From Nymphaea colorata (taxonomy: Eukaryota; Streptophyta; Magnoliopsida; Nymphaeales; Nymphaeaceae), in assembly GCF_008831285.2 (NCBI RefSeq), contig NW_022204968.1, positions 1 to 64,000 on the forward strand: a DNA stretch of 64,000 nucleotides. The letters run 5' to 3'. The stretch's first letter is position 1, and each line of letters begins with the position of its first letter. The position numbers and the translations under genes are program-made. Of this stretch, positions 149 to 63,829 are shown piece by piece. The notes below the pieces were generated by a model, which saw only the letters and a program-made list of their open reading frames with translations, did no database searches and was not told the DNA's origin.

Positions 149-2247
149 TCATATATTATAGAGTAATTTGGGTTTGCGCTTGATCCTGTTGGTCTTGCTC
201 AGCAGTGTGTTTTTTATTTATTTCTCACCCAGCGCATCAGGATTGAACTTCGTGAAGTAGGAGTGAAAGTTGCAGGCCTCATCGCAATCCACGTTATCCC
301 ACAGGGTAAACTGGAAATTAGTGAAAGAGGTTCGCTTCAGGTTCTTAATGTCGTCCCGCAATTGAGTCACCATCTGGATCGTCATCATCATGCTCTCGTT
401 AGATGGCCTCAGATAGCTGTTCCGCGCCTTCATTTGCTGCTGCTGGTCCTTCTCACTCTCGAACCGGCAGTCTTCTCGATCAAATTAGTAATGCTTCTGG
501 AGTCGAGAGGTCAGATTAGAAATCCCTTGAGTTTTTGGACTGGACGATGACCTCACAGCTGACCTGCATTTTATTCCTTTCGAACTTGACTCTAGTCTGT
601 TTGAAGTTGACTTTCTTGGACTTGTTGTACTTGAGCGGGAGTGTCTTCCTGAAGGGTTGGTAGTGTATCCTGGGGCACTAGAAGAGTGTGTGCATCCTAT
701 TATCACAGAAGCGCACTTGACCAGTGCGAACTAGTTGAGCTTGAACCTGCACTTATCGAGCAGCTATCGATACACCTGATAGTCCTTCTTTGATTAAATA
801 ATGGATTACTCGAAGGTGGCCTTGTCCATCTCGTAAATGACTGAATAGTCCAACGATTTTATGTCGTAGTTTAGAGGCTCACTCATCAGATCCAGACAGA
901 CCAGCTTGGATTAGGTCTATAACTGACTGTTGATTCGCTAGATGATGATGTTCCTCAACTTGCTTGGGTATTTGAACGAGTAATGTAGCCCACCTACCCT
1001 GATTGCAGGATGATGAGACTTTGCTGGCTCTAGATTCCCTTTATCATTTGGTCAGGGTGGCAGAAACGAGCTTAGATCTTAAGAGAAAGCTTCTAGATGG
1101 CCTGGTTTCCCATAGGAATCAGATGCCGCAAATTTTTGAATATCTTTAGTTTGCCTACTGCAGGAAGGACGACCGTAACGATTAAGGAAGTTCCTTGAGA
1201 AGTTTTTCTATTCAGTATAGTTAGATGTCTGTTTGATCTTTGATTCCTCGATGATATACCTTGCGATTTCATCGTTGATGGCTTTGGAAACTTTAGATTT
1301 CTTGGATAATGAGCTGAGCAATTTCAACTTGCTATTCCTCTCATTCTATTCCTGCTTGATGTTGTTGATGAGGTTGCCGATATAGTTGATATTATATCCG
1401 AAGAAAACGCAGGCGAAGAAGGAAATTACGATGATGAAGAAAGCCTCAATGGTATTGTTAGCATGCAGATCACCGAATCCGATGGTGAGGATGATAGTGG
1501 TTCCAAAGTAGTAACTCCAGATGTACTGTTCGTACCAATGGAGCTGGTCGATGCTGTTGGGAGTCATCCAGTTGTTCTCGCGGTCCATGAAGGCAATGAA
1601 GATGAGGGTGCAGGCGAGAGGTGGCAGACGAACAGGTTCTTGATGATCACCTTGAACAGGCTCCAGTACTTCACGAGTTGCGATGCGTTCAAATACTGTT
1701 CCTCCAGTTTGTGCAGTTGCTCCACGAAGTGGGAGATGTTAAGGCAGGGGCCTAGAAATAAAATGTTGCCCAGATCGACGTGGCAGTAGCTGAGTACAAG
1801 CGAAAAAGCGGTGGAGAGGAGAATGAAAAATTACAGTACCATTTGGATCTTTTTATCTCGACGCAGCTGCAGATATTTTTATTGGTTGAGAGCGTTATTA
1901 TCGACTGAGAAGTTCTTCTGGACGGTCTCGGCGAAATCTAAAAAACTGAAGATAATTCCAGCCCATTTGAGTCCGTAAAGCAGGACGGTTTCAGAGAGAT
2001 TTTAATAGAGGAGCGAGAGGGGCACGATGAAAAAATAGAGAACGATGAAGATGACCTTTGCGAGGTATATGAAGTCCATAAATTTGGTGTGAAGGTTAAT
2101 TTTGAGTTTTTAGAGAAACCAAATGTTCTAATAGGAGAAAATGTTTTAAAAGGGATTGAATGAGACGGGCGCTCGGAAGGGACTATTCATGGTGGCTTTA
2201 TCGTGAAAAAGTTTGACCATCTCTCTGACTTTTAGTATTTTTCGCAT
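149..2247 (-). CDS. Cyclic-nucleotide-gated/EAG-type K+ channel
   Basis: This is a six-transmembrane voltage/ligand-gated potassium channel of the plasma or ciliary membrane. Seen in order: hydrophobic segments (about 2080-1580), a pore with selectivity filter TIGFGD preceded by YIWSYYFGTT (about 1500-1450), the last membrane helix, a C-linker (FLNRYGR), and a cyclic-nucleotide-binding fold (KGIESQQSLIILQSGEVGYI, about 1040-970). UAA/UAG codons occur throughout as sense codons. The reading frame breaks near 1605, 1160 and 940; adding the lost bases restores one protein of about 700 residues ending at UGA 149-151. An alternative N-terminus in another frame could begin at 2518. Ciliates carry large families of such channels. 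The family is certain; the exact start is not. Confidence 0.85.
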
Positions 2248-2518
2248 GGGAGGTTTCTCCAGATTTCTACTTCTGTCTATGAGCTGTTATTACTCTTTGG
2301 AAGATTACTTTGAAGTCTTGTTTCGTTTGAGTCTCTTGCTGTGATTTTGGGAGAGGGAGCCCTGCTCGAGCAGAAAATTGAGGGATTTGATGTTGGGGTG
2401 ACCCATATTTTAGAGATTTGATTGCTGCATGTTGCCATTCATCTCCATGCCGGAATCTATCTCGTCGTGGTTTGAATAAAAATCGAGTTAAGGCTAAATA
2501 TTGGCATTCGATGGGCAT

Positions 2519-2953
2519 GCCATTTGGCCGATTTTATGCAGGCCTCGCCTCTTTTCCATTATCTCGTTATATAACTTATCATATTCAGCAAAATAAACTA
2601 CAGAAAATCAAAATTTTACAGATGAACAGCTCACTCCAATCACGCCCCCGCCCTTCTTTCCTTTTCTCCCGTCTATTTTTGGACTGTTAAGATAAAAATT
2701 GTTTAGAAGTTAAACAAAACTTGCTATTTGTTAGAATTTATTTTACCTTAACCGATATAATTCATACGCTTCAGAAATCAACAAATCATACCCTATACCA
2801 GGACAGACGTCCCCATAATCCTGCACACTTCATTATTATGCCTATTATTCCCAGTTATTTGGCAACGGCAAATTTTGATATTTTGGATCCACTTATTTGA
2901 GATAATCACAAATACCCAAGTATAGGGGGCATTAAAATTATTAGAGATGAAAA
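2519..2953. other. Intergenic, no gene recognised
   Basis: This is AT-rich sequence between the possible N-terminal extension of the channel and the 3' end of the next minus-strand gene. Short open stretches are present on both strands but none has protein-like composition or recognisable motifs. Confidence 0.5.
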
Positions 2954-3844: not shown

Positions 3845-4106
3845 CTTGGAGCGACAGTGTTAATAAATTCTAAGAATAATATATTATAGCTTAGATGGAC
3901 TTTACGGATTATTCGAATATACTGCAGCCAATTATTTATGACCAATGGATTAAAATATCTGTTTTCTTTTTTTAGTGCAAGAACGGCCAAAAATCTACCA
4001 TCAAATATTACGGTACCGGGAAGAATAAAACTAGCGGTCCAATTCGGCCAAATAGAGTTGGAAAGTAATGGTAGATGAGTTGAATGATTGGTTGGGAATG
4101 AAATAA

Positions 4107-4992: not shown

Positions 4993-5077
4993 AATTGCAG
5001 GCCATATGGTGAGAATGTGTGGTGGAGATGAATGCAAAGTTTTATTTAAGTTTTGGTGGGTGAAGAGTATTGAAATT

Positions 5078-5158
5078 GTCGCTATGGCCGAGTGGTTAAG
5101 GCGACAGACTAGAAATCTGCTGGGGAAACCCGCACAGGTTCGAATCCTGTTGGCGACG
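5078..5158 (+). tRNA. tRNA-Ser, anticodon AGA
   Basis: The acceptor stem GTCGCTA (5078-5084) pairs with TGGCGAC (5151-5157), with discriminator G at 5158. The D-arm GGCCGAGTGGTTAAGGC, a long variable arm (TGGGGAAACCCGCA) and the TΨC arm GGTTCGAATCC are all present. The anticodon loop CTAGAAA places AGA at 5111-5113; after A-to-I editing it would read UCU, UCC and UCA. The long variable arm is diagnostic of serine. There is no intron. It is the only tRNA found; no tRNA reading UAA or UAG lies in the window. Confidence 0.95.
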
Positions 5159-5303
5159 CTTTTTTATCACTTCCATCCTTATACTCAAAGCCTATTTTTT
5201 GTGGTATTCCGCGAAACGATGGTCCTTTTCGTTCATTTTTTCCTCATTTTTGGTAGCTTCACCATCAGTTTGGACATTAACTTAAAATAATAACGTAGAG
5301 ACG

Positions 5304-5897
5304 ATGGAATTAAAGAAATAGTTGCTGTAATGGTATAATAGCCAGCTCGAATAGAAGAACCTGTTCCTTTCCTCCCTTTAGGAGCTCTCTACAGGGTACT
5401 ACTTCCTCGAAGTTCTTCACAATTTCCACCCCAAAAATGTAGATCTTTCCAAGGTCTACCTCAAGCCGAAAAATTAGTACGAAGTTCTCCAAAACTACAA
5501 ACTGCTTTCGGGGTGCTTCATCAAGCTGGGATGGAAAAAATTCGATCCTGAGAGATATAGCAAAAGGAAAGAAAAAGATTATCTGTCCCTGGCCCAAATT
5601 TTACGCAAGATCCTGAGTACGAGAAGCATAAAGTAGAGTACCCTGCAGAACAACCTCGACACTACCTTGGAAGAGTTCAAGAACGATGAATAGGTGAAGA
5701 AGGGAGCGCCGCAGGAAAACCAAATGAGGAGCATGCGGATCATGCGGTTGGAGAAGGTCAAGAAGGAGCTTTTGGGCAAGATCATGAGGATCCAGGAGGA
5801 GCTATATAAAGAAGAGGAAGGAGATGATGCGATTTTGGTCCAAAATTTGGAGAGGACCATAAAGTAGATCATAGACGGAAAGGACCACCCAAATTGA
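5304..5897 (+). CDS. EB1-family calponin-homology protein
   Basis: This is an intact 197-residue frame, start ATG to UGA, with no break. Residues about 1-90 match the N-terminal CH domain of the microtubule plus-end protein EB1/MAPRE: a tryptophan-containing helix, LEELSTGYYFLEVLH, then NEYEVLQNYKLL, which aligns with the family's EHEYIQNFKLL. A UAG codon sits exactly at the conserved Glu of that motif. The C-terminal half is basic and coiled-coil, suitable for dimerisation. The canonical EB1 acidic tail is not obvious, so a divergent EB1-like or CH-coiled-coil protein is also possible. The likely role is binding to axonemal or cortical microtubules. Confidence 0.75.
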
Positions 5898-5997
5898 TAC
5901 TTCTGTTTCTAATCATATGCATCACTCCTTCCCCAAGGATGAAATGAAGTTCGGCTTATATACTGGAATCGCAGATAATAAACATAACTTAAATTAA

Positions 5998-6684
5998 TCA
6001 AACCTTGATGATACTGTTTCTTGACCTCCTGGCCAATTTCAATTTGGGCGGCGCGTATCTCCTGGCTTTGACGACAATTTATTTTTTTGTGCAATATTCT
6101 CCGAAGAAGAATACGGTCATAAACAAGAGGAAAAGGAAGCAGAGGAGGATGACAGCGACGTAGATGAGCATGACGGTGCCACTGGGAATGATTTTGGGTT
6201 TTAGATTTGCCTCATCGTTGTTTGCAACTGATAGAAATACTATGAACGAAACAAGAAAAAGCAGACCAGTTAGGTAAAAGGCTAAATAACAGCACATCTC
6301 CTTCCTCTTCCGCTACCAGTTCTTCTTTATCTGACTGCAGACCAACATCTTACGCTAGTCCTGGTCGTAGTTGTAGTCCGCCTGGCACAGCTCACACTTA
6401 ATGCTCAGTTAACCCTTCTAAACCTTTGTTTTTATCCATTGACTCAGGCATTTTTAGTGGGAGAATTAGACACTGCCGGTGCATTTGCACGGTTTGATCA
6501 TGAAGCTCTAGTCTGACTCTTCCAGGCATATGCGGCACTAGACTATGCGATGCTTGAGAGATGGTCGGGGTATGTTCCATCTGAATGCTTGCTCGATCGA
6601 TGAAGGATTGAAAATTTAGAGAGTCTTTGCGAGTTTCCGTGTCTCATTGGGACTATCTTGACCAAGGGCGAGACGGTGGGGCAT
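5998..6684 (-). CDS. RINGv (MARCH-type) membrane E3 ubiquitin ligase
   Basis: An unbroken frame gives 228 residues. A C4HC3 RING-variant finger is seen in full: CRICLEESD, CKCTGSVEFSHEKC, CELC, with the tryptophan (SQW) typical of MARCH proteins between. Two hydrophobic segments follow (LAFYLTGLLFLVSFIVFL and a second near VMLIYVAVILLCFLFLL), separated by a short loop, then a basic tail. This finger-then-two-helices layout is that of membrane MARCH ligases, which ubiquitinate membrane proteins. UAA and UAG fall at Glu-compatible places inside the finger. The start is the ATG that keeps all of this in one frame. Confidence 0.9.
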
Positions 6685-9287: not shown

Positions 9288-9465
<178 letters not shown>

Positions 9466-11172: not shown

Positions 11173-11911
11173 TCAAAAGTTGCATTGCGATGAAAACAGT
11201 TCCATTGGAGGTAAATATTTCAAGCTCACCAACATATTATCCGTATTGTTTTTTGAGTCCTAAAGGTTGAGGAAAGAGTTGTGGCTCACCTAAGATTGGT
11301 TCTCCATCAGTTCGTTGCACCTTCCGAGGGTCTCTCCGAGTTCGTCCTTCAGTTCTGGGTGGTTTCCTTCGATGTTCTTGAGCATGTCTGCGATTTCCTT
11401 GACTTTAGCCTTAACGAAGTTCCTGTACTCTGCGAGTGCGATGTTCTTGGAGAGTTCGTTATCGATGCTGATGTTATCGTCCTTGTATCCCTCGGAGATG
11501 GTCTAAAGGGACAAGCTTTCTTTTTTCGACTTTTTGTTATTTCTTTTGATATTCACCAAATCCTTTCTGAATAAAATGGGGATTACACGCTGCCTCTCCG
11601 AAAGTATTAGTTTTTGAAGTACATATAGTTTTTTTCCTTGACCATCTTGATTACCTTATTGAACTTGTACATGTTGAGCTGCCGGATGAAGGAGGAGAGG
11701 TGCCGGTGCCTGAAGAAGTGCGGCAACACTTTGTCCTCCAGCTTTTTTGGGTTTTTGATGAGGATCTCATTGTCTCCGAACCACGATAGGTAGTCGCTGT
11801 ATTATTTTTGCTGAGTCGGTTGGGGAGTACCTCGAGGATGTGATACAGTTTAATCACAAATTAGGGGATCTTGTCTTTGTAGGGTTCAAATTCTGGGATT
11901 AAAATGTCCAT
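11173..11911 (-). CDS. Heat shock transcription factor (HSF)
   Basis: The protein starts MDILIPEFEPYKDKIPEF and immediately enters an HSF winged-helix DNA-binding domain: FVIKLYHILE, SDYLSWFGDNEILIKNPKKL, KVLPHFFRHRHLSSFIRQLN, MYKFNKV, ending FKNEYFRRGS. The recognition helix SSFIRQLNMY is nearly invariant in HSFs. A helical region with heptads (FVKAKVKEIADMLKNIEG, then LMENQSE) matches the trimerisation zone. Two one-base gaps (near 11827 and 11597) restore a length divisible by three, about 246 residues, short for an HSF. A nearby gene (13979-14220) encodes the HSF regulator HSBP1. It acts in the nucleus on heat-shock elements. Confidence 0.93.
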
Positions 11912-16329: not shown

Positions 16330-17207
16330 TCATACGGCCCAACCGTTCTTCATTATTTCTCGAGTCGTTGGTCTTTCCCCCGCCTCGTAGCTGACCATCC
16401 TTTGAAAAAGCTATTGAAACTATTGCATCCTGCTGTCCTCCTCCGCGAAGATGACGTGAACCTGATGATGGAAGGTCCAGAAATCTTGGAATTTCCTCTC
16501 CACGATCATGCGGTAGAGCTTGTTGTCCTCGGTGGCCATCTAGAATGGCAATTTGCCCATCACCAGAGCGAATAGGAGACTCCGAGAGCGAAGATATCGG
16601 CGCTGGCGGCATGATAGGGCCTATCTGTACTTTTCTGGCAATAGTGAATCTCTGGAGCCATGTATCCTTTGCGTGTTCCTTTATGTTAATTGAACAGTAC
16701 AGTCTGTCCGTCCTTCTAGAAATGGCTAGCGAATCCAAAATCGCTGAGTTTGATGCAGAGCTACTCATTCTCGAGGGAGACGAGAACATTTTCGAGCTTG
16801 ATATCCCGGTGTGCAATTTTTTGAGAGTGGAGGTAGTGAATGGCTGAGAGTACCTGTTGGAAGAGTATTTTTTGTGTGGATTTGGGAGGTTGGTGGGTTT
16901 GTATGTAGGTGAGTAGGGATCCCTGTGGTGCATATTCGAGTACTAGTATGTTCTTCGTGGGAGTGGGGAACTATTTATCCATTTTATTACCCTGAAAGGC
17001 AACCAGTTCCTGATATCTAAGGGCTTTGATGATGTGTTAGTGCTCGAGGGATTTCAAAAGTTGGAACTCGTTTCTCAGGTGCCTCTGCTCCTTCCTGCAC
17101 ACAGAGGAAACCACCTTCAGCACCACCCGAGCCTACGCCTGACCGTATGTGAACAGCTCGGAGTTGCACCCCCGCCCCAGCAATGCCAGCCTGTTCTCAA
17201 TCATCAT
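16330..17207 (-). CDS. Serine/threonine protein kinase
   Basis: This is a full kinase domain of about 290 residues. The G-loop is degenerate (LLGRGCNSELF). VVLKVVSS carries the ATP-lysine, FQLLKSLEHEHI the C-helix, and NILVLEYAPQGSLLTYI the hinge. The catalytic loop is HRDIKLEN and the DFG motif is KLSDFGFA. GTRKGYMAPEI is the activation/APE motif, followed by ADIFALGV, LVMGKLPFEMA and a C-terminal GERPTTREIM. UAG at LPFEMA and in SLENEEL suits Glu. One lost base near 16575 makes the length exact. It resembles CAMK/SNF1-like ciliate kinases. Confidence 0.88.
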
Positions 17208-23308: not shown

Positions 23309-25326
23309 ATGGCCACACAGTAACGCAACTCCATTTCTACTGGTATTCCTGCTGCGGGAGCCAACGTAAAGGTGGTCTGTCGTTTCCGTCCTCTGAACGA
23401 GAAGGAGAAGGCGATGGGCGCCATGCACTGTCACTAGTTGCTAGATGACAAGACGCTATCCATCAAGGACAAGGAGCAGAAGGACAAGGAACCGCTCAAG
23501 TTCACCTTCGATAAGATCTTCGATGTCAATACCAACCAGGCAGAAGTCTACTCCTACGCCGCCTCCTCCATCATCGATAGCGTCATCGAAGGCTTCAACG
23601 GCACCATCTTCGCCTATGGACAAACCGCATCCGGAAAAACACACACCATGGAAGGAGCCATCGGAGAGGCAATCACATAACAGTCCGGAATTATACCCAG
23701 AATGGTCAAACACGTCTTCGATTCGATAGCTGGTTTCTATGAAAACGTGGAGTTCCGAATCAAGGTATCCTTGGTGTAGCTCTACATGTAGAAGTTGAAG
23801 GATTTGCTGGATTCCAACAAGAACGATCTGAAGATCCGATCTGACAAGAAGCGGGGAATCTTCATCGAGGACCTTACCGAAAACTACATCTCCTCCATGG
23901 AGGAGGTCTACAAGCTGATAGAGATCGCACGCAACTGCCGCTCCATCGCTGCCACCAACATGAACGAACGCTCCTCCAGGTCTCACATGATCTTCATCCT
24001 CACCATCAGCCAGAACAACACCCTTGACCTCACCGCCAAGACTGGAAAATTGTACCTGGTGGATCTGGCTGGCAGCGAGAAGATATCGAAGACTGGAGCG
24101 GAGGGCAAGACGCTGGACGAGGCCAAGAAGATCAATGCCAGTCTCACCACTCTCGGCAAGGTCATCAACGCACTCACTGATGGAAAATCCACCCACATCC
24201 CCTACAGAGACAGCAAGCTGACGCGTGTCCTGCAGGAGTCTTTGGGAGGAAATTCCAAGACCACGCTAATCGTTACCTGTTCCCCCCACCCCAACAACCT
24301 CGCAGAAACCATCTCCACTCTCCGTTTCGGTATCTCCGCCAAGAAGATCAAGAACACGCCCAAGATCAATAAGGAGCTGACGGTTGCTGAGCTGCAGGCC
24401 TTGCTGGACAAGTCAGAAAAGGAGTTATAAGTGCGCAACAAGTATATTGAGCAGCTCAAGAATCACATCTTGGTCGATTTGAAGCAGAAAAGCGTCCCTG
24501 AGTTCGAGACTGACAAGAACATCGTCCCCATTGAGGAGAATGATAATGACTATCTCACTGAACTGCAGAGACAGCTCTAGATGGAGAAGAATCTTCACAT
24601 CGTGCAGGACGAGCAGATCAACTCACTCAAGATCAAGTGCGACCAGATCACCAACGAAAAAGACGACCTCTAGAGAGAAATCTAGGGGCTTAAGGCAGAA
24701 GTGGCCCTCAAGATGAGGGAACTAAAGGAGCTAAAGCAAAACACAAGGCCGAACGTGGCAAACGCTGACGAAAATGCAATCAAATGCGGATCCACAGAAT
24801 AATTCCTGAAGGAACTGCAGAAGATCACCTCAGATGAGAAGGTGCTCAAGTTCATGAGCCAACTTCCTGAGATCAAGCCTGCCAAAAACGAATAGCTCAG
24901 CAAAATGCTGGAGGAGTATGAGCAGGAGAAGGACAAGCGCAAAAAAGCTGAAGACAGCTTGGCCAAGTACGAAAGGAACATGCAGAAAAGCTAGTCCAGT
25001 TGGAAAATAACATTTGCCAACTCACCCACGCATACTACGATCTAGTGGTGGTGCAGCAGCGTTACAAGGTGGATAACATCTTCATCAAGAAGGAGCTGGA
25101 GACCAAGGACATCACCATCCAGATGATGAAGGAGAAGATAAAGGACCTGGAGGACCAGAACAGGGAGCTAGAGGATGGCTACCTCAACGAGGACGACCGC
25201 AACAACCGAGGAGAGCCCACCCTTAAGGAGGGATTCGAGGAGAGCAACCGCAAGTTCGAGAAGAAAATGGAAGAGATGAAACACAAACCCAATGTGGTGA
25301 AGGTCCTCAAGGGCGGACTCAAGTGA
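23309..25326 (+). CDS. Kinesin-1-like motor protein
   Basis: About 672 residues. N-terminal motor domain: [15 protein letters not shown]-loop [15 protein letters not shown], switch I NERSSRSH, switch [11 protein letters not shown], then [18 protein letters not shown]. The neck, [20 protein letters not shown], resembles fungal-type conventional kinesin. A coiled-coil stalk follows, ending [11 protein letters not shown] at UGA. VSLVELYMEKLKDLLD contains two UAG codons exactly where kinesins have Glu, strong support for UAR=Glu. Only one base (near 24990) is missing. It should transport cargo to microtubule plus ends. Confidence 0.95.
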
Positions 25327-30748: not shown

Positions 30749-31601
30749 ATGAGCACTCTCGCCGCAGCCAGAGCCGACAACTTCTACCGCCCAAGAACTT
30801 CGACCCCTCCAAGGTGGTCCCGCGCAAGAGCGACCTCGCCTAGGAGAAGCCCTTCGTGGTGGTGGAGGGACAGCGGGTGGGCGGGACCAAGGTCCGCTAC
30901 GAGACGCCCTTCCACGTGCGTTGCGAGGGCTGCCAGAACATGGTGGCTAAGGGAGTCCGCTTTAACTCCATCAAGACCTGGGTGGGCAACTTCCACACCA
31001 CCAAGATCTACGAGTTTCGCATGAAATGCCCACAGTGCATACAGCGCTTCGTCGTCAGGACAGACCCAGAAAACTGCGAATACATCTACGTCTCGGGAGC
31101 CAGGAGGATCTTCCAGACCAAGGATTGCACAGACGAATCACGGATCAGGGACGAGGAGAAGCAGAAGAAAATAAAAGAGAATCCCTTTGCCAAGCTGGAG
31201 AATGAGTATGAGGACAAGATTGCCTATGGAGGGATGGAGGCGACCATATAAAAATTGGAGGAGCAGCAGGAGAGAGGAATGGAGGACTTCGAACTCAACC
31301 GTATGCTACGCAAGCAGGCACGAGTGCTACGCGAGGAGGAGAAGGCATATTTTGATGAAAAAAAGCCAAGAATTTATCGATCCCTCTGCTGCCTGCCAGC
31401 GTTGAAGATGACCTGATGGCCGACCAGGTGGAATTCAAGCAGGAGAAGACCAAACCCATCAAGAAGGAGGACCGCGTGATGACCGAGCGCGAGAAGCTGA
31501 AGGAGAAGATGAGGAAGATGAATCCTTAGTTCCGCAACCGGCTGAGGATGGAGATAAAGACGATGAACAAACCCACTTCCTCAGTCTTCATCAAAAAGTG
31601 A
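30749..31601 (+). CDS. CWC16/YJU2-CCDC130 family splicing factor
   Basis: About 284 residues. The CWC16 core is plain: YETPFHVRCEGCQNMVAKGV, RFNSIKTWVGNFHTTKIYEF, RMKCPQCIQRFVVRTDPENC, EYIYVSGARR. The two CxxC pairs bind zinc. A charged coiled C-terminus ends SSVFIKK. Proteins of this family (Yju2, CCDC94, CCDC130/Saf4) act at the spliceosome in branching. Two one-base losses (near 30790 and 31363) make the length exact. UAG in DLAEEKPF and UAA in TIEKLEEQ suit Glu. Confidence 0.92.
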
Positions 31602-31631: not shown

Positions 31632-32510
31632 TCAATCCAAATCTTAGAACTGTCTCTTCCTCCCCTTCCTCATTATCTTCATCTCTATGTGCTTGTCCAT
31701 GACCTCCTCGCTAACTGGATTATTCCACTTCCACTCCAAATCCATAGCCTACCTCTGCTCCTCAGTCATCAAGCTAATCTCGTACTCTTTATACTCGACC
31801 AGGCACCACTCCTCCGCCTTTCCTCCGTTCATGACCGCGTATATGGGATCGTACTCCTTCTTGCGTTTGAGCTTGGTCTTGGCGGAGTTGAGGTTGAATG
31901 CATTTTTCAGCTAAATCCCCGTCTTCCAGCAGTGCTTGGAGGAGAAGCAGCTGGCGAGGATGGCATAGCGTCTGCGGTTGTTCTACCTCCGCTCCGTATT
32001 CTCGGCGAAGAAGTCGTGCACGTAGATGTTCTTGCACTGGTGAAGCTGCAGGAATTCTACTATTTCGTCAGTCTCTGCCTTCAGTCCCTAAAGCTGGACC
32101 TTTTTGGAAGCCAGCATCAGCTGTCCGCCCAATCCCCATGCTGCTCCCTTGCTCGGTCGGTGCACCAATTTATGCGGGCTCGGGTCTTCCCCCTCGTAGC
32201 TGTACTTCAGTTCCTCTGCGACTTTGTTCCTAAGCGAATCCTGCACCATCTTATCGTAGCTGAGCGGTTCCAGCTCATCCTCAAGCTCCTATTAGATGGA
32301 ACGTTCTTCAGACTTAGATTCTACGGCTCCTGCCTCCTACTGGGACTGCTGGAGGGATTGCTATTCTGGTTTGGGGGCGTTCCTGGGAGTTCTGCGTAGG
32401 TTTCTGGCGAAAAAGTAAACTAGTTGTTGAAGTTTGCCAGCATAGTTAATTATAAATGAGGCATAACCATGAGAGGCAAACTTTTCAAACAAAATCATCA
32501 CATTCATCAT
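31632..32510 (-). CDS. Ribosomal silencing factor RsfS/MALSU1-like
   Basis: An intact 292-residue frame. Residues about 150-270 carry the RsfS fold: TDEIVEFLQLHQCKNIYVHD, RRRYAILASCFSSKHCWKTG (the CFSSKHC-type strand), GGKAEEWCLVEYKEYEISLM, TEEQREAMDLEWKW. The UAG in EQR[UAG]AMDLE sits on the family's conserved Glu (R-E-x-Y-x-L-E). A basic, aromatic N-terminus (NYAGKLQQLVYFFARNLRRT) suits a mitochondrial targeting sequence. RsfS/MALSU1 binds L14 of the mitochondrial large subunit and blocks premature subunit joining. Confidence 0.85.
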
Positions 32511-40013: not shown

Positions 40014-41780
40014 TCAATCCATCAGATTCTACAATCTGGAGTAAGTTTATCGACGCCGAACCATGTGGTCATTAGTTCTCTGCTCGTTTAATCGCACTTG
40101 GTGATTGTTGAGGCCTGTGTTGGAGTTGTAATAGTAGGTAAGTTCGGGAAGATATCCCACTCTCTCGTGAGCTTGCTAGAGGATGGGAATGCAAATTGCT
40201 ACGTCGTTTGCAGCTCTCAGATACTCTCCGTTGGCGTCCTTCAGTCCTCTTCCTTTATGTTCACGAAGAGCTTGGTATAGAAGGCTCTTAAGTGACTGGT
40301 TATAAAGGGATATTTGCGATAAGTGTTTTACTTTATAGTGGAGGGAGGGAAAGGCCGCGAGAAGCCAACTCCAGCAGTGGTCGTGAAGAAGTTGGAATAT
40401 ACAAACCACAGTTCTTTTCGGTGAAGACTGCATTGAAAAGCTTTAAGACTTGCTTTCCTAACAGCTCATCATCTCCATCCACAATCATGAATATTTCTTC
40501 AGGCTTGCAAAACTCTTTAGCAGCTCTGCGCAGATTAGGCATGGCTCTAACCTGCAAGCTATTGGTGATGAGCTGATACCTATCTGAGCCTACTTTCTTA
40601 TGCGATTCTAGGTATTCTTTGATCAATGTTCCAGTCTTATCAGTTGAAGCATCGTCAATGATGACAATGTGATAGTTAGTATAGTCCTGCATCACAATCG
40701 ACTTGATGTTGTTGAGGTACCTGCTATTCTCTGCATTGTTGTAGGTGGGAACAACGATGCAGAATGGTTTTTCTTCATATTTGCTAATTGAATATCTCTA
40801 TTAGTAGAAAATCTTTTCCTCTAGAGCCACACTGTCAAATTATTAGATTTCTGCATCGACGAGAGATCTCATCTTGCCGGCTAGGGAGAGTTGGGTGTTT
40901 GAAATGCTGGCAAAGGAGCCCTCAAAGTCATAGTCATTTGCGGGTGGGACGTCGTTGAAAGGCTAAATGGTTGGATGGATATCTTTGTAGTCATCTTTTC
41001 TGTTGGATTGGCCGAACGATTGGAAGGAAGCGTCTGAGTTGAAGTTTGGTCTTGGAGTCACCACGTTATATTGTTCTGCATATTCGTAGCTTTGAAGACG
41101 AAAGTAAGGCTGGGAATTTTGAGGCTGAATGGTGGTCTCTGCTGTTTGAGAATTTTAGTTGAGTATGGGAATGATTGATGGATTTTCAATGGCTTCCACA
41201 GTCTCTCCGACGGGGATATAAGGGCGGCTGCATTTTGAGGAACCATGTAGCTAATTTATTGACCATCTCTCTTATGCAGTTCTTCCTTCCTATTTTTTCT
41301 ACTTGATATTTAATTCTGATGTTGAGCCTAATTAGCTTTAAGGTTTATTCTCGATTATTCATTATTTTAGTCATTACCTGTGAGTTTATTGGCAGTGTTC
41401 TTTTCCTGGAGATGGGTAGCTTGGTTGCTGTTGGCTTGTGGAGTTTCATCAACAAAGGTATAGGAATGCCTGAGTTTTTATATGTTTTGGGAGAATCTCT
41501 ATCTTTTTTGGGAGGAACCCACCATCTGTGATACCAACTGCGTTGCGAATAGGCCGATGAGGGTGATAAGGATGACAAAGTATGCCCATTTGGAGCAATT
41601 TCTCATCCATTGCCTCATTCTATTCCCTCCTACACTTATATCCTTTTCACGCTTAATCTCTTACTCCAAGCAACAATCATTGATTCTCCTTTCCTCCTGG
41701 GTTCTTTCAGCTTGGAGGTTATTTTTTTCTTCATTTTCAGCATCCTCAGCAAATATTTTCTTCATTTTATGGGAATCCAT
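40014..41780 (-). CDS. Family 2 glycosyltransferase, type II membrane protein (paralog A)
   Basis: A cytosolic N-terminus, one membrane helix (WAYFVILITLIGLFATQLV), a long stem, then a GT2 catalytic domain: FCIVVPTYNNAE, NYHIVIIDDASTDKTGTL (nucleotide-sugar-binding Asp), IFMIVDGDDELLGKQVL (DxD-like), the acceptor-site region GEYLRAANDVAICIPILEQA, and YNSNTGLNNHQVR. The end is at UGA 40014-40016. It is a close paralog of 42055-43560, with which it lies in tandem. At aligned positions the paralogs swap UAG and GAG. It probably acts in the Golgi or ER; donor and acceptor sugars are unknown. Confidence 0.88.
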
Positions 41781-42054: not shown

Positions 42055-43560
42055 TCACTCGTTGGCGAATAGGTCCCTCACCTCTTGGTATCTGGGATAA
42101 GTCCTCACTTTTTTATCGTTGGTCCTCTGTTCCCTCAGTCTCAACGCATGGTTGTTCAGGCCGTATTGGAGTTATAGAAATAGGTAAGCTACGGCACGTA
42201 GGCTACTTTCTAATGAGCTTGCTCAAGGATAGGAATGCAAATAGCGACATCGTTTGCAGCCTTGAAGTACTCGCCCTTTCGTCCATAAGGTCCTCCTCCT
42301 TGATGTTGAGGAAAAGCTGAGTGTAGAAGGCGCGAAGATGGCTGGTGACGAAGGGGTACCTTCTGTATGCGTTTTCGTTGATGACTCGCTGCGTGAATGA
42401 TCGGGAGTAGCCGGCTCTTCCTGTTATGCTGACAAAGTTTGTGTACATGAAGTATAGACCCCGCTACTGGAAGTTAGCATTGAAAAGCTTGAGGACTTGC
42501 CTGCCGATGAGCTCATCATCACCATCGACGATCATGAAGATGTCATTGGGCTTGCAGTAGTTCTTAGCAGCAAACCTAAGGTTGTGCATGGCTCTCATTT
42601 GCTCGGCATTCCTGATGACTTCGTACCGTTATTCGGGGAGGACGTCTTGGGTTCTGAGGAAGCTGAGGATGAGTGATCCTGTCTCATCGGTGGAGGCATC
42701 GTCGATGACTACTATGTGGTAGTTGGTGTAATTCTGCATGACGATGGATCGAATGTTGTTGAGGTAGCGATCGTTCTTGGCGTTGTTGTAGGTGGAATGA
42801 CGATGCAGAAGGGCAGCTCAGAGTATGTGCCTATCTTGTACTTTTACTCGTAGTAGGCCACCTATTCATTTGAGATATCGTTTGATTAGTTGAATGGCAA
42901 ATGGACTAGAGTTTTGCGAAGACGGGCCTTGTTGAGTTGAATTTGAGTTATGCCGCTGCCCGCCACGCTGGAATAGATGGGCCTGCGACTGTTGGGTTTA
43001 TTCATCGGTCTTGGAGTAGCCTTGGCTGCTCTTTGGGTGCTACTTTTACCAGTTTATCTATGTTAAGTCTGCTATTTCACAGTTTTGGATGTTTGTATAT
43101 CTTTTGCTGTTGTGCTTTTGCTGGCCTGTGCAGTTTATTTGGGTAAAAATTCTTACTTTTGTTCATCTTTGGACGGGAACAACTCGGGGTATTACCTTTG
43201 AAGAAATTATTCCTTGGTTTCTTCCTTTTCGTTCCTGTAATTTTTAAATCTAAGGCCGCCAGGTATGACTTTTTATTTTTATGTGCTTTAACTTTATCTT
43301 TTAAGTTCCTCTAAATTCTTTAGAAATTTATCGGTATTTTTGAATTTTACCTTCTGCTCCACGAAGATTTCCCTGCAGATATATACAACCAATGCCAGAA
43401 GAATGACCAAATATATGGTCCTGTGGCAATTGTCGCCTTGCTATAGGCGTTTTTCTTTTTTATCCATAAAACGTTGATCATTTCTTTCAGATCCTGAGGT
43501 TTTGATGGTTTCGTCATGATGCAATTTTTCCTATTCTTCCTGGGTAGCGTTCTGGATCAT
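42055..43560 (-). CDS. Family 2 glycosyltransferase, type II membrane protein (paralog B)
   Basis: Start MIQNATQEEEEKLHHDE leads without breaks through a membrane helix (TIYLVILLALVVYICREIF) and a Glu/Lys-rich stem full of UAR codons to the GT2 domain: FCIVIP, TYNNAKNDRYLNNIRSI, NYHIVVIDDASTDETGSL, IFMIVDGDDELIGRQVLKLF, YFKAANDVAICIPILEQAHE, YFYNSNTGLNNH. Breaks occur near 42800, 42285 and 42160. Its catalytic half is very similar to paralog A, whereas the stem differs. The tandem same-strand position indicates local duplication. Confidence 0.88.
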
Positions 43561-43799: not shown

Positions 43800-46417
43800 T
43801 CATGAGTTTTGGTGACTGTTGACGATGAGAATCCTCCTTCCGAGCTCACTGTGCTTCATCTTCATCAATCTTTCCTTCATCTACTGCAAGGAAAGCCGGT
43901 CAAGGTCGCAAAGGTTCACCACATTCTTCTTAGAACTGCGTGCCTTGCGCTACTCCCACTTTATCTTCGGCAGAATAGCATTAGCGTCTTATATTTCGGG
44001 TGTTTTTCTGCATTACTCGGTACGCATGCGTTGCTTTTGGTCGTTACGGGTGACAGCTGTGCTCCATTGCCCTTGGTGTCCTTCTTTTCCTTTACAGGTA
44101 AGAATTGTTGTCCCTCTTTCTAACCAATCGCTAAAATAAGGAGCCTTAGAGCTACTAAGCTTCTTTGGTGAGCATCATTACTAACTTTTGCTAAAATTGC
44201 CTTCTTATTGGCGAATTCTAATCCTCATTTTCACTGTCGGAATCATAACCTTCGTCCTTTCTGTGGTTTCTCACTTATTCGCCCATTTTGATCAAAATTT
44301 CCTTCAGCGGCATGATTATCTTCTACTTTTGATCAGTTTAACTCAACATATTGCCAAAGTCGATGACGCTAGAGAGGATATCTTCACCCATTTTCAGGAT
44401 ATCTCTTTAGTTGATTCTTTTTCCTCTATATAGCCGAATGAGCTTTATATTGTATAGCTATAGGGAAAACCAACTTGTTGAAGAAGATGTAGCGGGAGCA
44501 TCCTTTCTTATATGGTTATAGATTGTAGCTACATTGACTTAGCTAAAAGTTTGGATTCCGCTTGCTGATGAGATAGGGTAAGACTTTGGACAAATCATAG
44601 AGTTATGAGCTTTTGTGATGAGGGGCCATAGGAAAAAACATTTTATTAGGAAGAATGGCCATGAAAATCTATGAAAATTTTGATTTTTTTAGCATGCTAT
44701 TTTTTCTTTCTCTTGAAATACGATGTGATTCCCTTCAACTAAGGGAAAAGATGATACCTGTTGGTTTCTTCATCGATATACCAGTGGCGGTTGAAGTCAA
44801 ACCCCTGCAAGCCTGTCCTATTGTTTCCCAAAATACTCCATCGATGTTGACCATGGGTATAAGGATCCAGGTGAAATTGTTTAGCGACTCTAGGAGTCTG
44901 TTTACGAATCCCTCCATGAGCCATGAGCCTACGCTTTATCCGGGATGTTGGCGAGCCATAGCCACCACGATCACATTGCTATTTGCATTCTCATTCACCA
45001 AAAAGGCCTCTATCTTGTTTCCCAAGACAGTCCTCGAGATCTATGCGCGATGGAAGGGGACAGATTTGTATATCTTGGAGTATCTACTGTAGGGATAGGC
45101 GGTTGACTGCTAAACTACACTTCATCATTGGCAATATCAAAGGAATATTCGAAGGAAAGTTAAAAAGTTGCGGCTAGCTTTCTTCCTAAGCCTGTCCGTA
45201 GGTAACTTCCCTATATCTGCTCGTAAAACCTATGCTGTTTGGCCGCAGACCGATGGTAGGGTTTTAAGCCATCGGTATAACTCATTTTCTTTTTGAGTAA
45301 ATTCTTGATGGTGATGGTGACGTTGGCGATCCTTTTATTTCTAACCTTGAAGTAAAACCACTGGAAGTGAGTCATGGTATTGGTGTCAGGTTTGAGATAG
45401 AGTTCATAGCTGTTATTGCGGTAGATCACATACTGCAGGTTTGCACTCTCGAAGGCGGAATCGAATGCCAGGGTGTTGTTGATGAGGATGCCGTTGGGAC
45501 GGTAGATGGGAGCGGGGTGGGTTGCTGCGAATTGCTTGAGCAGATACTATTGCAGATCGTTATTTATGTAGGCATCGGGAGCGATGGTGGGCTTGGCCAC
45601 TGGTTTGAGCTTGAGCGGATTGTGGTAGGCCCTGTGGTGGGACTCCTTGAAGCTCAGACAGGGCGAATAACTGTATTCCATGTACTCGGTAGGAGATTAC
45701 TATGCGAAGCCTTCCTCCTCGTTCATTTGCAGCATTATAATCACCTCATGCCGTGCGTTTGCAGTTATTCCTTATAAAAACAGTCACGGATCGAACGGAA
45801 GACCTTTTGTGAGGGGAAATGGGAAAAAGAGTATCAAAGATCAAGGTGGTTGGAGTATGCCCTTTCGCCTTTGTGTTCAGGTAGAATTTCATGAAATCTT
45901 TGTTGAGAGCAACCTCGCGAATGAACTGCATAAGACCACGCTTCTTCGCGCATTCCTCGTTCATCAGTCGCCTCGCTTTCCCCCTTAGAACTCGATGAGT
46001 GACAACTGGCTCGCCCATTTGGACAGTAGAGACTTTACGCTCAAGAGAAGCTGTATCGATGGTATGCTTTCCTCTCTCGGTAACTGTACGCTTTTGCCTG
46101 TGAGTGGTGACTTTGACTTCAGAACCATTCCACCGTTCAGAGCTCCATATCTTGATTTAGAAGAAGGCTGCGTGACAGGAGCAGCTTATGTGAAGTCAAG
46201 GCTTTGGTGGGACATCTTGAGGACTCCTTTTGACTTTTTGGTGGAGTTGTGCAGTGGCTAGGTGACTCTGGGCAAGCGCAGGAAGGTGCGTTTGTGGAGG
46301 TGAGCATTATTGGGAGCGATGAACTGTTTCCTTCGTCGATATCGTCCTGGTCGAGATAGCTGAGGCCGCGCACCCAGGACCAAGCTCAATAAAAGTTTTA
46401 TTATCGTTTTGATTCAT
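43800..46417 (-). CDS. M14 cytosolic carboxypeptidase (CCP/AGTPBP1 type)
   Basis: About 870 residues over several one-base losses. The N-domain has YELYLKPDTNTMTHFQWFYF and YTDGLKPYHRS, as in tubulin-deglutamylating CCPs. Peptidase: the zinc motif ARQHPGESVGSWLMEG (HxxE), PMVNIDGVFW, GNNRTGLQGFDFNRHW (NR), the third zinc ligand in FIDFHGHS, and the catalytic Glu in YSYTIESSFGY. Both essential glutamates, in HPGES and YTIES, are encoded by UAA (44936-44938 and 44445-44447, minus strand). The acidic C-terminal tail (DSDSENEDE) ends at UGA 43800-43802. Such enzymes trim polyglutamate from tubulin, which fits a ciliated cell. Confidence 0.93.
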
Positions 46418-49997: not shown

Positions 49998-51503
49998 CTG
50001 AAGCTGGTGCCATCGGAGACAGTGATAGTGCCTCCTCTCACCATACAGCAAACCGGCAGAACAACATAGCAACTTAGCGGAAGGACCAACAGAAGCTTAG
50101 AAAAGCAGCAAATGCAACCTACCTTCCTCCATCATCAATCATTCCTCCTTCTTCCCACATCAGCAAGATAACGCAAAGCAAGTCTACCATCCACATCCTG
50201 TGTACGTCCCAATGCTCTTCCAAATGGACAATATTATGGGCCTCCTGTTCCAGTTTTCCAATCACTACCACTGCTCCACGCCAACAGCAACCTCTCCCTG
50301 CCTTCATCGATCAAAAACAGCTCACAGCAAGCCTCTCCAGATGCCTTCCTTTACCTTTACCCCTCCTCCACTAACTTCAGACATCTTTAATCGCAAAAAT
50401 GGAGAAACTTTCCTCAATGATTCAAAAAACCAATCAGTTCCTAGCTTCGTGAAGCCTCAAACCCTGCCAACCTATGTGCCTCCACCAACTGTTGCTAATT
50501 CTGCAGTTTCAAAGCCACAATCAAATGGTGGTCTTCAATCCTCTAGCTGACTATAAGTAAAGCATATACGAACCCATTCGACCATCAAACGAAGTCAGTC
50601 CTCAAACCTACGTCGAAAGCCCAGTCAAGTAGCGAGAAATAAGATCGATATTGGTCGATTAAAAGCACGAAGCTCACCCGCCTATCGAGAAGAGTCCCAG
50701 CATCATCGACAAGATCCTGGCTGAAAATGTGGAAAACCACCAGGAGGAGCTTCGTCCTGCTCCACCCAAGCACGATAAGCATAAATAGGCAGAAATCGCC
50801 AGCAACCTCCTCAAAGCCATCAACGAGAAGAAAACTCGCCAGCCATCATCCAGGACAACAACTAATAATCTAATCCTCCATCAAAAACGAGCTTTCCGAT
50901 ACTCCCGTCCGCCCCACCTCCAAAAAAATACAATTCCACCATCGTGGAGGTCAGGGACGAGGATTCCCCTTAGCCTTCCCTCCGTCCTAGGAGGCAGTAT
51001 AGGAGGAATACGTGGTGGAGGAGTATTAAACCGGCAGCAGATACTAAGGATTCAAGAGCAACGGCATGCGGAATGGCCGAGGCAAGTTTTACTACCAGGA
51101 CGGAGGTACTACGAGGGACACTGGCGCAACAACAAGATGGATGGCTTCGGCGTCTCTACTACTAGGGAGGCAAGCTGGCCTACTAGGGCAACTGGTCGCA
51201 GGACGAATTCAACGGCTCAGGGAAGGTCTACAACGACAATCCAGTCCTCCTCAATGACGTCTTCGACTATACCAACTTCTAGCTGCTGGAGGACTACTGG
51301 TAATACTACGAAGGCATGCTGGTGCACGACACAAAGAGGGGAGGGGACGCATCAGGCTCTCCAACGGAGAGATTTTCTAGGGTGATTTCCACAACGACCG
51401 CATCCAAGGCTTCGGGAAGTTCTACAACATGGACGGGAAGGTGATCGAGGGCATTTGGCGAGAGTCCAAGCTGATAAAGGTGATCAACGCTGGCGACAGG
51501 TGA
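49998..51503 (+). CDS. MORN-repeat protein with disordered N-terminal region
   Basis: A Gln/Ser/Pro-rich stretch (TFTPPPLTSDIFNRKNGETF, PSFVKPQTLPTYVPPPTV) is followed by a charged linker (VEKSPSIIDKILAENVENHQ-like) and then MORN repeats: YEGFKSNGMRNGRGKFYYQD, GHWRNNKMDGFGV, YYEGGKLAYEGNWSQDEFNG, FEGDFHNDRIQGFGKFYN, ending VINAGDR at UGA 51501-51503. In three MORN signatures (YYEGG, AYEGNW, FEGDF) the E is a UAG. MORN repeats bind phospholipids and organise cortical or ciliary structures. Many one-base losses are present. It could form one protein with the kinase-like gene. Confidence 0.7.
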
Positions 51504-56760: not shown

Positions 56761-56793
56761 TGGCATTTTTAATGTTTATGATCATAATCAATC

Positions 56794-59480: not shown

Positions 59481-60686
59481 ATGGGCATAAAATAAACCAA
59501 GATTGCCTACTTCGACGGCAGCTACTATTCGGGGGAAGTCAACTCATCGGGCAGGTAGCACGGCAAGGGACAGATCTACTACGCCAACGGAGACCACCTC
59601 AAGGGCAGCTTCGTCGACTCCGAATGCACCTACGCGTACATCACCAAGAAGAATGGAGATACATACGAAGGGCAAATGAGAAATCTTAGGTTCCATGGTC
59701 AGGGAAAATTGACGTCGAAAGGAGAAAGCTGGAGCGGGCTTTTTAGAGCAGGCACCTTCCTCCATGGAAAAATCATATTGGAAGATGGATCAATCTACGT
59801 GGGATCGGTCGACCAAGGTTGTCGGGCAGGTTACGGGTAATTGAAGACAGCAGACGGCACAATATACAAGGGCCAGTTCAGACGTGACAAGTTCGACGGA
59901 TACGGCGAGCTTGAGCAGCGAGACGGCTCCAAATACAGTGGCCACTTCAAGTCGGGAGAGTTCGAAGGGCAAGGCACCCTGGTGAAGTTCGAAAGGGGCA
60001 AAAAGGCATACCAGTATGAGGGTGGCTTTGCTGCAGGACTCTTCGAGGGTGAGGGCAAGCTCGTGTACGCGGGCGGGAACAGCTACGAGGGCGGCTTCAG
60101 GAACGGCAAGAAAAACGGAAGAGGGATTTTCAAGTACGAGAGCGGGGATGTGTACGAGGGGTGCTTCAGGGACGACGCCAAGGAAGACACCAACTGCACC
60201 ATCACCAGGACCAACGGCACCAAGTACGTGGGCGGAATTGTGAATGATAAGTACCACGGACGGGGAAGGCTGGAGAAATCCAACGGAGAATACTATGAAG
60301 GATAGTTCTAAAATGGAGAGAAGCATGGTAGGGGAAAGCTGAAAACGCAGTAATTCCTATACGAGGGGGAGTTTGCAGGGGGTTTCAAGCACGGGTAAGC
60401 CAAGGTGACTTACTTCGACGAGGACCACAAGGTGATAGAGGGCAGGTTCTAGAACGGGGAGATGCACGGTACTTGCATCGAGAAGAGCGACAAGCAGCTG
60501 CTCGAGGTGACTTACAACAAGGGAATAAAGGAGGGGCCTTACCGCAAGAAAATGGGATCAGACTACTAATAATCAGGGACTTTCGTCAACGGTCAGCGTC
60601 ACGGGACCATAAAGATCCGCAAGGGGAACGAATCAGCAGCATACCGTTTCGAGGATGGGGTGCGTTGCTAAGAAATCCCAATATGA
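59481..60686 (+). CDS. MORN-repeat protein, about 14 repeats
   Basis: An unbroken frame of 401 residues and the cleanest long gene in the window. Nearly the whole length is MORN units of about 23 residues: YYSGEVNSSGREHGKGQIYY, TYEGQMRNLRFHGQGKLTS, IYKGQFRRDKFDGYGEL, KYSGHFKSGEFEGQGTLV, YEGGFAAGLFEGEGKLVY, YEGGFRNGKKNGRGIF, YYEGEFENGEKHGRGKLK, YEGEFAGGFKHGEAKV. Ten or so UAR codons occur, several at the Glu of YEGEF-like motifs. Its size and context next to radial spoke protein 9 suggest an axonemal protein, as several radial spoke proteins carry MORN repeats. This is an inference. Confidence 0.93.
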
Positions 60687-60724
60687 TCATGCCATCGCAT
60701 TTAAATTAGATTGTATAACTTAAA

Positions 60725-61666: not shown

Positions 61667-61883
61667 TCTGACCATCATCATCAGGCATCATCCCAACCAT
61701 CGAAAAACCGCAATATAACTTATCAACCATATTCATTAATTTTGCTTCAATTGACAGTTCCTGCAAAAATGACAGTATTTTCACGTTTAACGCATTCTTT
61801 CCTTTTCTCTGGCCTGCGGATGTGGGTCGTTACATCGGATCGTCCATTATAAGCTGATTATTTATACTCACATAGACTTCTAA

Positions 61884-62450
61884 ATGCTTCTGCACTCCCC
61901 CTCCGGCGTTTCTCCCGAAGAGTCCGCGCGTCGTAGTCAGCGCAAGACCAAGCGGATCGACCGCGACCGCTTCGCCAAGGCATACTCGAAACCTGTGACT
62001 CCCAAACGCGCCAGGAATCTGCCCGACCAGCAGATCTTCCAGAGCGAGCTCCACGCCTACTGCAACAAGTTGATGTCGGCCAGTACGCGAACCCATGAGG
62101 AATATCTGCTTGCCGAAATGGAGAAGGCCTTCAAGGAACAGAGCAGCAAGCTGTTCCTCATCTGCAAAATAAAATTAAAGCAGGAAGAACCACTTCCACC
62201 ACCTACCAGGGCTCCTCCTTCACCCGTGCTGCTCATCCCGTCAATGGAGTAGGTTCTGGAGAGTTAGATCTCTCAGCTTCCAATGCTGGAGGCAGATTAG
62301 TTTCCCTGGCAGGGTCTCCACAGGGCATAGAGTGCCAAAATGCTTTGCGACAACTACGAAAACCATGAGCTGGTCTACTCGGTGGAGACCTTGACGCCCA
62401 GACTGGCCAGGGAGGATCTGGACTTCAAATTCATGGAGGAACTGCAATGA
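61884..62450 (+). CDS. Hypothetical protein
   Basis: An intact frame of 188 residues: MLLHSPSGVSPEESARRSQR, then a basic helical region (KTKRIDRDRFAKAYSKPVTP, NLPDQQIFQSELHAYCNKLM, EYLLAEMEKAFKEQSSKLFL), a Pro-rich linker (PLPPPTRAPPSPVLL), and an acidic C-terminus (LAREDLDFKFMEELQ) at UGA 62448-62450. Four UAR codons lie in the last third. No family recognised. Confidence 0.6.
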
Positions 62451-62505
62451 TAAGCCATTTTTATTAACATACACAGTATGGGTGGAAGGCAGATAAACAC
62501 AGATA

Positions 62506-63829
62506 TCATCGTTTGTCCTTCAGGGTAATGGAAGGGTTTAAGTGGTCCACCGGAATCCAACCAATCAGCATAATGGTCGGCAGCACGAACGCTCCCAAGG
62601 CGAGAACGACTGGCAGGAGGGGGATTTGGTTTCCTGAGGGAAGCAGGCTCAGCTGGAAGATAAGGTAGAAGATGGAGTGGAGCTGCTTATTTACCGAGAA
62701 AGCTTCAGCCTTGCCTCCGAAGTGCCTGCGCAGACGAGATACATCCACCCCTCCACGAAGAAGAGGAAAAATCCCCACTAAAAGGCAGTCATCATCGCCA
62801 GCTCATACAGCTTTAGCTCGAGAGTAGCCGCGAACAGCAGACATCCTAAGATGGCCAATATTAATCCGAGCCGACCGGTAAAGAGAGTGCTCATCTTGTC
62901 TGAGATCTTGCCTAGGAGGATGCCGCCTATGGTGGCGCCCGCACCCAAAGCTATCATGAGATAGCCTGCTAGTTTGTTTATCTACGATTTGCTGGCGTCC
63001 GAGAAGATAAGATGGGGGATTTCGGATGAGTAGATTCCAAGCGAAACTCCATCAACGATCAGCAGAGGCAGAACCATCTTCATTTGAGGGAAAAACTGAA
63101 ACACTTTCAGCAGCATTTCCTTCGGACTGTATACGGGTGGAGTGGGGATGGGAGCAGGACTCTACAGAAGACTGCCATTGTTTTAAGATTACATTATCGA
63201 ATCTGAAGTAGCTTGCAAGGCTTTGGGGGCGTCGATGGGGGTGATGAAGATGGCGCAGTAGATGATGGACAAGACTCCAAAGGAACTGATGATCACGAAG
63301 TAAATTTCCGCATCGAAAAACCCCAAACCGAAGGTGGTGAGGAGGCCTGCTGAGACGTTGGAAAGGCAGTAGAGAGTGCTGAATATCCCGAACATTTATC
63401 CCTGTCTCCCCTCCTCTCCTCTCTTCCCGCAAGCCAAATGAATGTAGCGGCCCTGTGATACCCACAAAGGCCCTCCCGAGAGTCCCGCGACCACTGCTCC
63501 TGTGCAGCTGATGGCGAACTTGAGCCAAGATTATTCCGCGAGTGCAGCCAGGATGCCTGAGGAGTAGTTGAGGGTGTAGCAAACTCCGCCGAAGAGGAGC
63601 TGCGTCTTGAGTGGCCACTTGAGGAGGGGGCGAGGAGAGTGGAGAGGATGAAGGCGACGTAGTTGCAGGCGAGGGTGGCTGGGCCGATGCCAGGCAGTCC
63701 GGCGTCCTCGTAGATATGAGTTAGGATGGTCATGTAGAGGAAAAGGGTGTGAAGAGCAGAAAGAAGAAAAGACTTAGTCGTAATGTGTCCTCTCTCACTC
63801 CCATGATTCTTAATAATAATACCCCCCAT
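62506..63829 (-). CDS. UNC93-like major facilitator membrane protein
   Basis: A multi-pass protein of about 440 residues. SFLLSALHTLFLYMTILTHI is the first helix region, QLLFGGVCYTLNYSSGILAA and LKFAISCTGAVVAGLSGGPL follow with WVSQGRYIHLA, the conserved W-x-x-Q-G-x-Y motif of UNC93 proteins. Then MFGIFSTLYCLSNVSAGLLT, VIISSFGVLSIIYCAIFITP, a Pro-rich loop, VLPLLIVDGVSLGIYSSEIP, GYLMIALGAGATIGGILLGK, and a final IPLLPVVLALGAFVLPTIML. UGA is at 62506-62508. Two or three one-base losses. The UNC93 family includes K+ channel regulators and transport-like proteins; the substrate is unknown. Confidence 0.85.

Follow-up and report, generated by a model that had tools for sequence, protein, structure and literature searches.

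The window considered here is a stretch of 64,000 nucleotides, bases 1–64000 of contig C464 (NW_022204968.1; 65,106 bases) in assembly G000, and the matter of interest is how its genes read the codons UAA and UAG (together, UAR). The reading of UAA and of UAG, each taken separately, as glutamate, with UGA as the stop, is strongly supported by the sequence analysis, and with a probability of about 95% a ciliate, probably a peritrich, accompanied the plant material, the contig being one of its macronuclear chromosomes in full and its nuclear code that of NCBI table 30. That code, which the translation-table listing names ‘peritrich nuclei: TAA=E, TAG=E’, is rare and already known (UAA = Glu, UAG = Glu, UGA stop), and no difference from it was found; it is the instance that is new. 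The first-pass annotation of the window had proposed glutamate for both codons, and each is now upheld by aligned columns, by a net Pfam gain of 12.3 bits, by tRNA genes with UAR-reading anticodons and by an altered eRF1.

Glutamate at UAA and UAG

The tally of UAR codons against protein families that had been outlined at first pass was run, and the columns prefer Glu, not Gln. PDB alignments served as its source, for kinesin, EB1, M14 and Saf4 in the window and for one dynein heavy chain each on contigs C288 and C222, and it holds 2,330 columns, among them 45 UAR (20 UAA, 25 UAG), 158 GAR and 84 CAR; 12 of the UAR columns stem from window exons and 33 from the dyneins (C288 26, C222 7). The UAR column profile follows GAR, not CAR, with a Glu fraction of 0.39 for UAA and 0.53 for UAG as against 0.50 for GAR, and a Gln fraction of 0.03 and 0.04 as against 0.46 for CAR. 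Where the references were unanimous, UAR faced Glu in 19 columns, Gln in 1, Asp in 5, Lys in 3, Ala and Val in 2 each, and Ser, Asn, Thr and Leu in 1 each (the 9 others were mixed), while the unanimous Glu and Gln columns numbered 2 and 36 for CAR and 69 and 11 for GAR. Fisher’s test on these unanimous Glu/Gln columns gave p=4e-12 for UAR versus CAR and p=0.45 for UAR versus GAR. Glu was the best of the 20 residues for UAA alone, for UAG alone and for both together; under a likelihood that assumes the columns to be independent, many of them having a single reference, log10 support over Gln was 8.0 (UAA), 14.6 (UAG) and 22.5 (both), and over the runner-up, Asp, 3.6, 4.9 and 8.5. Strong single cases are the M14 zinc ligand (UAA), kinesin VELYMEK (UAG), and dynein GRS-E-LPDN, CS-E-QLSSQ and NCD-E-TFD.

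Those two properties of the likelihood weigh against the glutamate reading, as does the choice of the dynein frames and the exons for their match to known proteins. To the same side belong the Saf4 UAA column, which holds S, N, Q, Q and Q in five PDB chains, the Gln coming from three YJU2 chains that were omitted from the tally; the CH_2 and CAMSAP_CH families, which prefer Gln in the EB1 exon by 1.6 and 2.8 bits; and three of the ten Pfam comparisons described below, which come out marginally better with Gln (by 0.7 and 1.0 bits for MORN and by 0.1 for the kinase), with RINGv a tie. Other references omitted were two for kinesin, two for the C288 dynein, three for the C222 dynein and three for EB1. 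The cut-off tail of the C222 alignment was excluded as well, as were RsfS, with its E of 0.24, and MORN, on account of the repeat register, and kinesin column 23789 and EB1 column 5319 were counted with Asp as well as Glu.

The amino-acid scoring covered window exons between 5301 and 60647, which represent part of the window genes, and ten exons were scored against Pfam twice, once with UAR as Glu and once as Gln (Table 1). The Glu-minus-Gln differences, whose sum is the net gain given above, favor Glu in six exons and Gln in three, and kinesin (+6.3) and M14 (+4.2) supply 10.5 of the 12.3 bits. Several residues at which the first-pass annotation had placed Glu could be set against PDB references. 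In the EB1-like exon, UAG at 5379-5381 and at 5475-5477 each face E in 5/5 references, as had been claimed; UAG 5319 faces E in two and D in three, and UAA 5328 faces Ala in 5/5, which is weak or contrary. For the two UAG codons claimed for kinesin, the one at 23777-23779 faces E in 5/5, and that at 23789-23791 faces E in one reference and D in four. The RsfS codon UAG 31749-31751 does face E in 2/2, yet both are chains of one protein, MALSU1, with E-values of 0.24 and 0.68, and the case carries little weight. The M14 zinc ligand is a strong case, UAA 44936-44938 (minus strand) following HPG and facing E in 2/2 references; for the second site of the same gene, UAA 44445-44447, the motif SYTI-X-SSFGY, with X at the probable catalytic Glu, was read by eye and also adds little. 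The MORN motif YEGEF, put forward as evidence for Glu, does not discriminate: the two exons scored gain 0.7 and 1.0 bits when UAR is read as Gln (the exon at 51103-51336 has 15.8 bits with Glu and 16.8 with Gln), and PDB MORN1 is non-discriminating too.

The common ciliate code, NCBI table 6 of Tetrahymena and Paramecium, likewise has UAR as sense and UGA as the sole stop, but reads UAR as Gln where Glu is read here. The slightly higher MORN scores with Gln are on its side; it nevertheless falls 22.5 log10 units below Glu in likelihood, has Gln in just 1/20 of the unanimous E-or-Q UAR columns as against 36/38 for CAR, and would turn the M14 zinc ligand into Gln, so that with the tRNA evidence given below it is very improbable.

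UAR-Reading tRNA Genes

Two suppressor tRNA genes were found in G000 by pattern match, each drawn as a cloverleaf by ARAGORN, one with a UUA anticodon (G000:C120:50410-50481) and one with a CUA anticodon (G000:C293:3539-3610). They are mutually 83% identical, and when the CUA tRNA was used as a DNA query, these two genes alone were matched; the suppressor pattern was narrow, and further copies may therefore exist. Pattern matches on C406, C766 and C623 were set aside as tRNAs, since ARAGORN draws none of them as one. C120 carries CCCCAA telomeres. The left end of C293 was inspected and bears no telomere; the tRNA-Arg(UCU) of C293 matches, over the pattern stretch, a copy on C251, which has a CCCCAA end.

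For comparison, Glu(CUC) of the telomere-bearing C269 and Gln(CUG) of C601, a contig whose ciliate origin is not established, were used; both came from a wider pattern, a narrower Glu-tRNA pattern having missed the ciliate gene, and no ciliate Glu(UUC) gene was found with the Glu-tRNA patterns used. Both suppressors have the acceptor pairs U1-A72, C2-G71 and C3-G70 of the compared tRNA-Glu (TCC...GGA), not those of the Gln type (GGT...ACC). Of 61 positions compared, the CUA tRNA shares 39 with Glu and 34 with Gln; for the UUA tRNA the counts are 35 and 33. At the 30 positions that discriminate between the C269 and C601 genes, the CUA tRNA is Glu-like at 13, Gln-like at 8 and neither at 9, and the UUA tRNA 13, 11 and 6. 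Among positions matching either, the acceptor and position 73 are Glu-like in 6/7 (CUA) and 6/9 (UUA), and the T arm in 3/4.

Other features of the two genes point the opposite way. The anticodon arm and variable loop are Gln-like at 5/7 (CUA) and 6/8 (UUA) of the positions matching either. In a comparison that included neither the C269 Glu nor the C601 Gln gene, a covariance model of the two suppressors gave plant tRNA-Gln 56.6 bits, more than plant tRNA-Glu (48.0 and 46.0), with the tRNA-Arg of C293 at 46.6. For the CUA gene itself, the minimum-energy fold is not a cloverleaf, and 22/200 shuffled sequences reach an equal or better fold energy (z -1.38). Table 6 would draw support from this quarter as well, as the anticodon loop (A37, A38), the variable loop and the 8-nt D loop, the last as in tRNA-Gln, lie closer to tRNA-Gln; the Glu-type acceptor ends, unlike the G1-C72 of the compared Gln tRNAs, speak against it. 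The suppressors thus look, from their sequences, like mosaics of a Glu-like acceptor and T arm with a Gln-like anticodon arm, and they support Glu at the acceptor end and do not settle descent.

A split code of the kind found in Oligohymenophorea sp. PL0344 was also weighed. That organism has UAG = Glu, UGA as stop and suppressor tRNA genes with UUA and CUA anticodons, as here, but reads UAA as Lys rather than Glu (PMC10553269, in the portion consulted). UAG = Glu agrees with such a code, and Lys makes up 15% of the UAA column weight. In the 20 UAA columns Glu is nonetheless 10^4.2 times likelier than Lys, and UAA is the codon at the zinc ligand of M14 and at two columns of the C288 dynein where all references used have Glu. 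The UUA tRNA, moreover, resembles the CUA tRNA, a difference from PL0344, and its acceptor end is unlike that of the Lys tRNAs of C123 and C377; a Lys reading of UAA is accordingly hardly credible.

In the mechanism that we propose, glutamyl-tRNA synthetase would charge both suppressors, with the UUA tRNA reading UAA, and UAG by wobble, and the CUA tRNA reading UAG. The mosaic also allows a tentative and rather unlikely two-step origin, in which an ancestor that read UAR as Gln would have had tRNA-Gln suppressors, of which the two genes would be relics; conversion of their acceptor end and T arm to the Glu type would then have carried UAR over from Gln to Glu, with no further change needed in the anticodon. 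A Gln-then-Glu order for the peritrich code has been proposed from phylogeny, according to the part of PMC10553269 available to us. The two-step origin is held low because one Glu and one Gln gene were compared and the anticodon-loop bases could have converged; if the mosaic holds in other peritrichs, it would give a molecular-level view of a codon shift from Gln to Glu. No description of peritrich suppressor tRNA genes was found in the literature looked at, a partial selection outside which one may well have been published.

UGA as the Stop Codon

With all three standard stops, the longest open frame of the window has 292 codons and three frames reach at least 250 codons (0.0 in dinucleotide shuffles); with UGA as the sole stop, the longest has 608 codons and 73 frames reach that length (13.4+-3.6 in shuffles, with a maximum of 22 in 50). 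Frame length picks no stop set, and length alone is no proof of a UGA-only code, because the other stop sets tried also beat their own shuffles. More telling are genes aligned to known proteins, within which UAA and UAG are seen to lie in frame, as the first-pass annotation had stated. Its further claim that UGA is the only stop is sustained by a read-through search for the dynein domain AAA_6, in which ten matches, all on small contigs, contained 14 TAA, 7 TAG and 1 TGA; the single TGA looks like an intron or exon end, because the frame downstream no longer reads as dynein. The frames used in the tally are bounded by TGA by construction, and their lack of UGA is therefore not independent evidence.

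The eRF1 gene on the telomere-bearing contig C78 has KAAQIKD in place of the TASNIKS, and YNCDSKF in place of the YLCDNKF, of two plant eRF1s, and its one UAR aligns to Glu in 2/2 of these. An eRF1 with the KAAQIKD motif would no longer stop at UAR and would still do so at UGA, and N-terminal changes of eRF1 are reported to restrict recognition to UGA in other ciliates (PMC10553269, in the part consulted).

The in-frame UAR codons could also be put down to pseudogenes, to faults of assembly or to standard-code sequence disrupted by stops, and introns and frame changes do interrupt many of the genes. Against this, UAR occupies conserved and catalytic sites and has the column profile of GAR, two dynein frames stay open (one of 905 codons containing 31 UAR, the other of 1,075 containing 14), UAR-reading tRNA genes are present and telomeres on both ends mark an intact chromosome, which leaves such an account with next to no probability. 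A divergent dynein-heavy-chain-like gene, L102 (G000:C632), has 30 UAR in a 1,061-codon frame and an AAA_6 match of only 51.1 bits.

In coding segments selected by a self-trained codon model, TAA occurs at 6.8, TAG at 14.8, GAA at 28.0 and GAG at 47.8 per thousand codons, so that UAR makes up about 22% of the Glu codons in those model-chosen segments, and TAG is commoner than TAA, paralleling GAG over GAA.

The Chromosome, Its Source and the Host Assembly

The contig starts with CCCCAA repeats, and its right end, beyond the window, has TTGGGG repeats from near contig base 65,023; it is therefore a chromosome complete with both telomeres, of the kind found in ciliate macronuclei, and its small size (65,106 bases) is likewise a feature of the Ciliophora. 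Assembly G000 has 783 contigs and 407.8 Mb, and its big contigs C1-C14 look like another organism of flowering-plant type, with eRF1 genes in long open frames on C7 and C2; C783 (159,842 bases) is about as long as a plastid genome and C782 (617,195 bases) about as long as a plant mitochondrial one. A telomere-junction pattern gave 198 matches in G000 (111 forward, 87 reverse) and the reversed pattern 1 and 0; the first 100 of the 198, those listed, are all on C19-C402. From these matches, therefore, a large part of a ciliate macronuclear genome, or of the genomes of more than one ciliate species, probably lies hidden inside G000. Beside the main chromosomes of another organism, G000 thus makes available many chromosomes with telomeres from a ciliate in which UAR is Glu, along with UAR-reading tRNAs and an eRF1; annotation by the standard code would fragment those genes of the ciliate that have UAR in frame. 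CCCCAA repeats also lie inside contigs, at G000:C120:74339-74361 and G000:C272:28913-28935, and these may be chromosome-fragmentation sites or assembly joins of two chromosomes.

As to the source, the peritrich put forward at first pass is consistent with the findings and the obvious guess, made from the code alone. PMC4967479 cites a 2003 paper by Sanchez-Silva et al. on ‘translation of UAA into glutamate’. The code could be right and the organism a non-peritrich ciliate that acquired UAR = Glu independently, an improbable case against which we count the C4A2 telomeres, presumably a fit to the Oligohymenophorea. PL0344, with UAG = Glu outside the peritrichs, lends this case some support, whereas UAR = Glu has been inferred to have arisen once, in Peritrichia (both from the part of PMC10553269 consulted). 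Peritrichs read UAR as Glu (PMC11687900, in excerpt), as is the case in Campanella umbellaria and Carchesium polypinum (PMC10553269, in excerpt), and a peritrich genome paper is in print (PMC12411067, seen in part).

Features of the Window

Translation of the window yielded 64 clusters of at least 60 residues, 21 of which were scanned as 20 proteins (two clusters were joined and two proteins trimmed). A Pfam family was found at E <= 0.01 for 19/20, and above the curated cut-off for 18/20, c6 being slightly below the cut-off and c19 without a family. The families include kinesin, citrate synthase, amino-acid transporter, Saf4/Yju2, RsfS, HSF, RINGv, PHD, CH, M14, glycosyltransferase, kinase and MORN.

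Table 1. Features of the window, with Pfam scores in bits for UAR read as Glu and as Gln.
Feature	Position	Strand	UAR codons	Pfam Glu / Gln	Remarks
CCCCAA telomere repeats	1..75	.			Left end of macronuclear chromosome
tRNA-Ser(AGA)	5078..5159	+			Sole tRNA detected in window
EB1-like CH-domain exon	5301..5624	+	UAG 5319, 5352, 5379, 5475; UAA 5328	35.2 / 33.8	CH, +1.4
RING-variant domain exon	6376..6549	-	3 UAA, 3 UAG	53.9 / 53.9	RINGv; non-discriminating
HSF-type DNA-binding exon	11580..11852	-	4 UAA	66.8 / 65.8	+1.0
Protein kinase exon	16782..17198	-	1 UAA, 2 UAG	76.1 / 76.2	
Kinesin motor exon	23360..24388	+	UAG 23435, 23777, 23789; UAA 23678	385.9 / 379.6	PDB columns
Saf4/Yju2 splicing-factor exon	30772..31407	+	UAG 30841; UAA 31249	152.0 / 151.7	+0.3
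RsfS-domain exon	31701..32099	-	UAG 31751, 31913, 31985, 32090	40.1 / 39.2	+0.9
M14 probable catalytic Glu codon	44445..44447	-	UAA		Same gene as zinc ligand; SYTI-E-SSFGY by eye, without aligned reference
M14 carboxypeptidase zinc-ligand Glu codon (HPGE)	44936..44938	-	UAA	33.1 / 28.9	Exon 44819-45118
MORN-repeat exons	50994..51500	+	UAA 51027, 51045, 51301; UAG 51000, 51163, 51184, 51280, 51378		
MORN-repeat gene	59481..60647	+	7 UAA, 3 UAG	113.3 / 114.0	PDB MORN1

Two adjoining and very similar genes on the minus strand resemble family-2 glycosyltransferases, that at 40444-40776 by Pfam match and that at 42437-42861 by resemblance alone, and appear to be a duplication. The translated cluster at 9333-9464 (plus strand) contains several dozen consecutive prolines.

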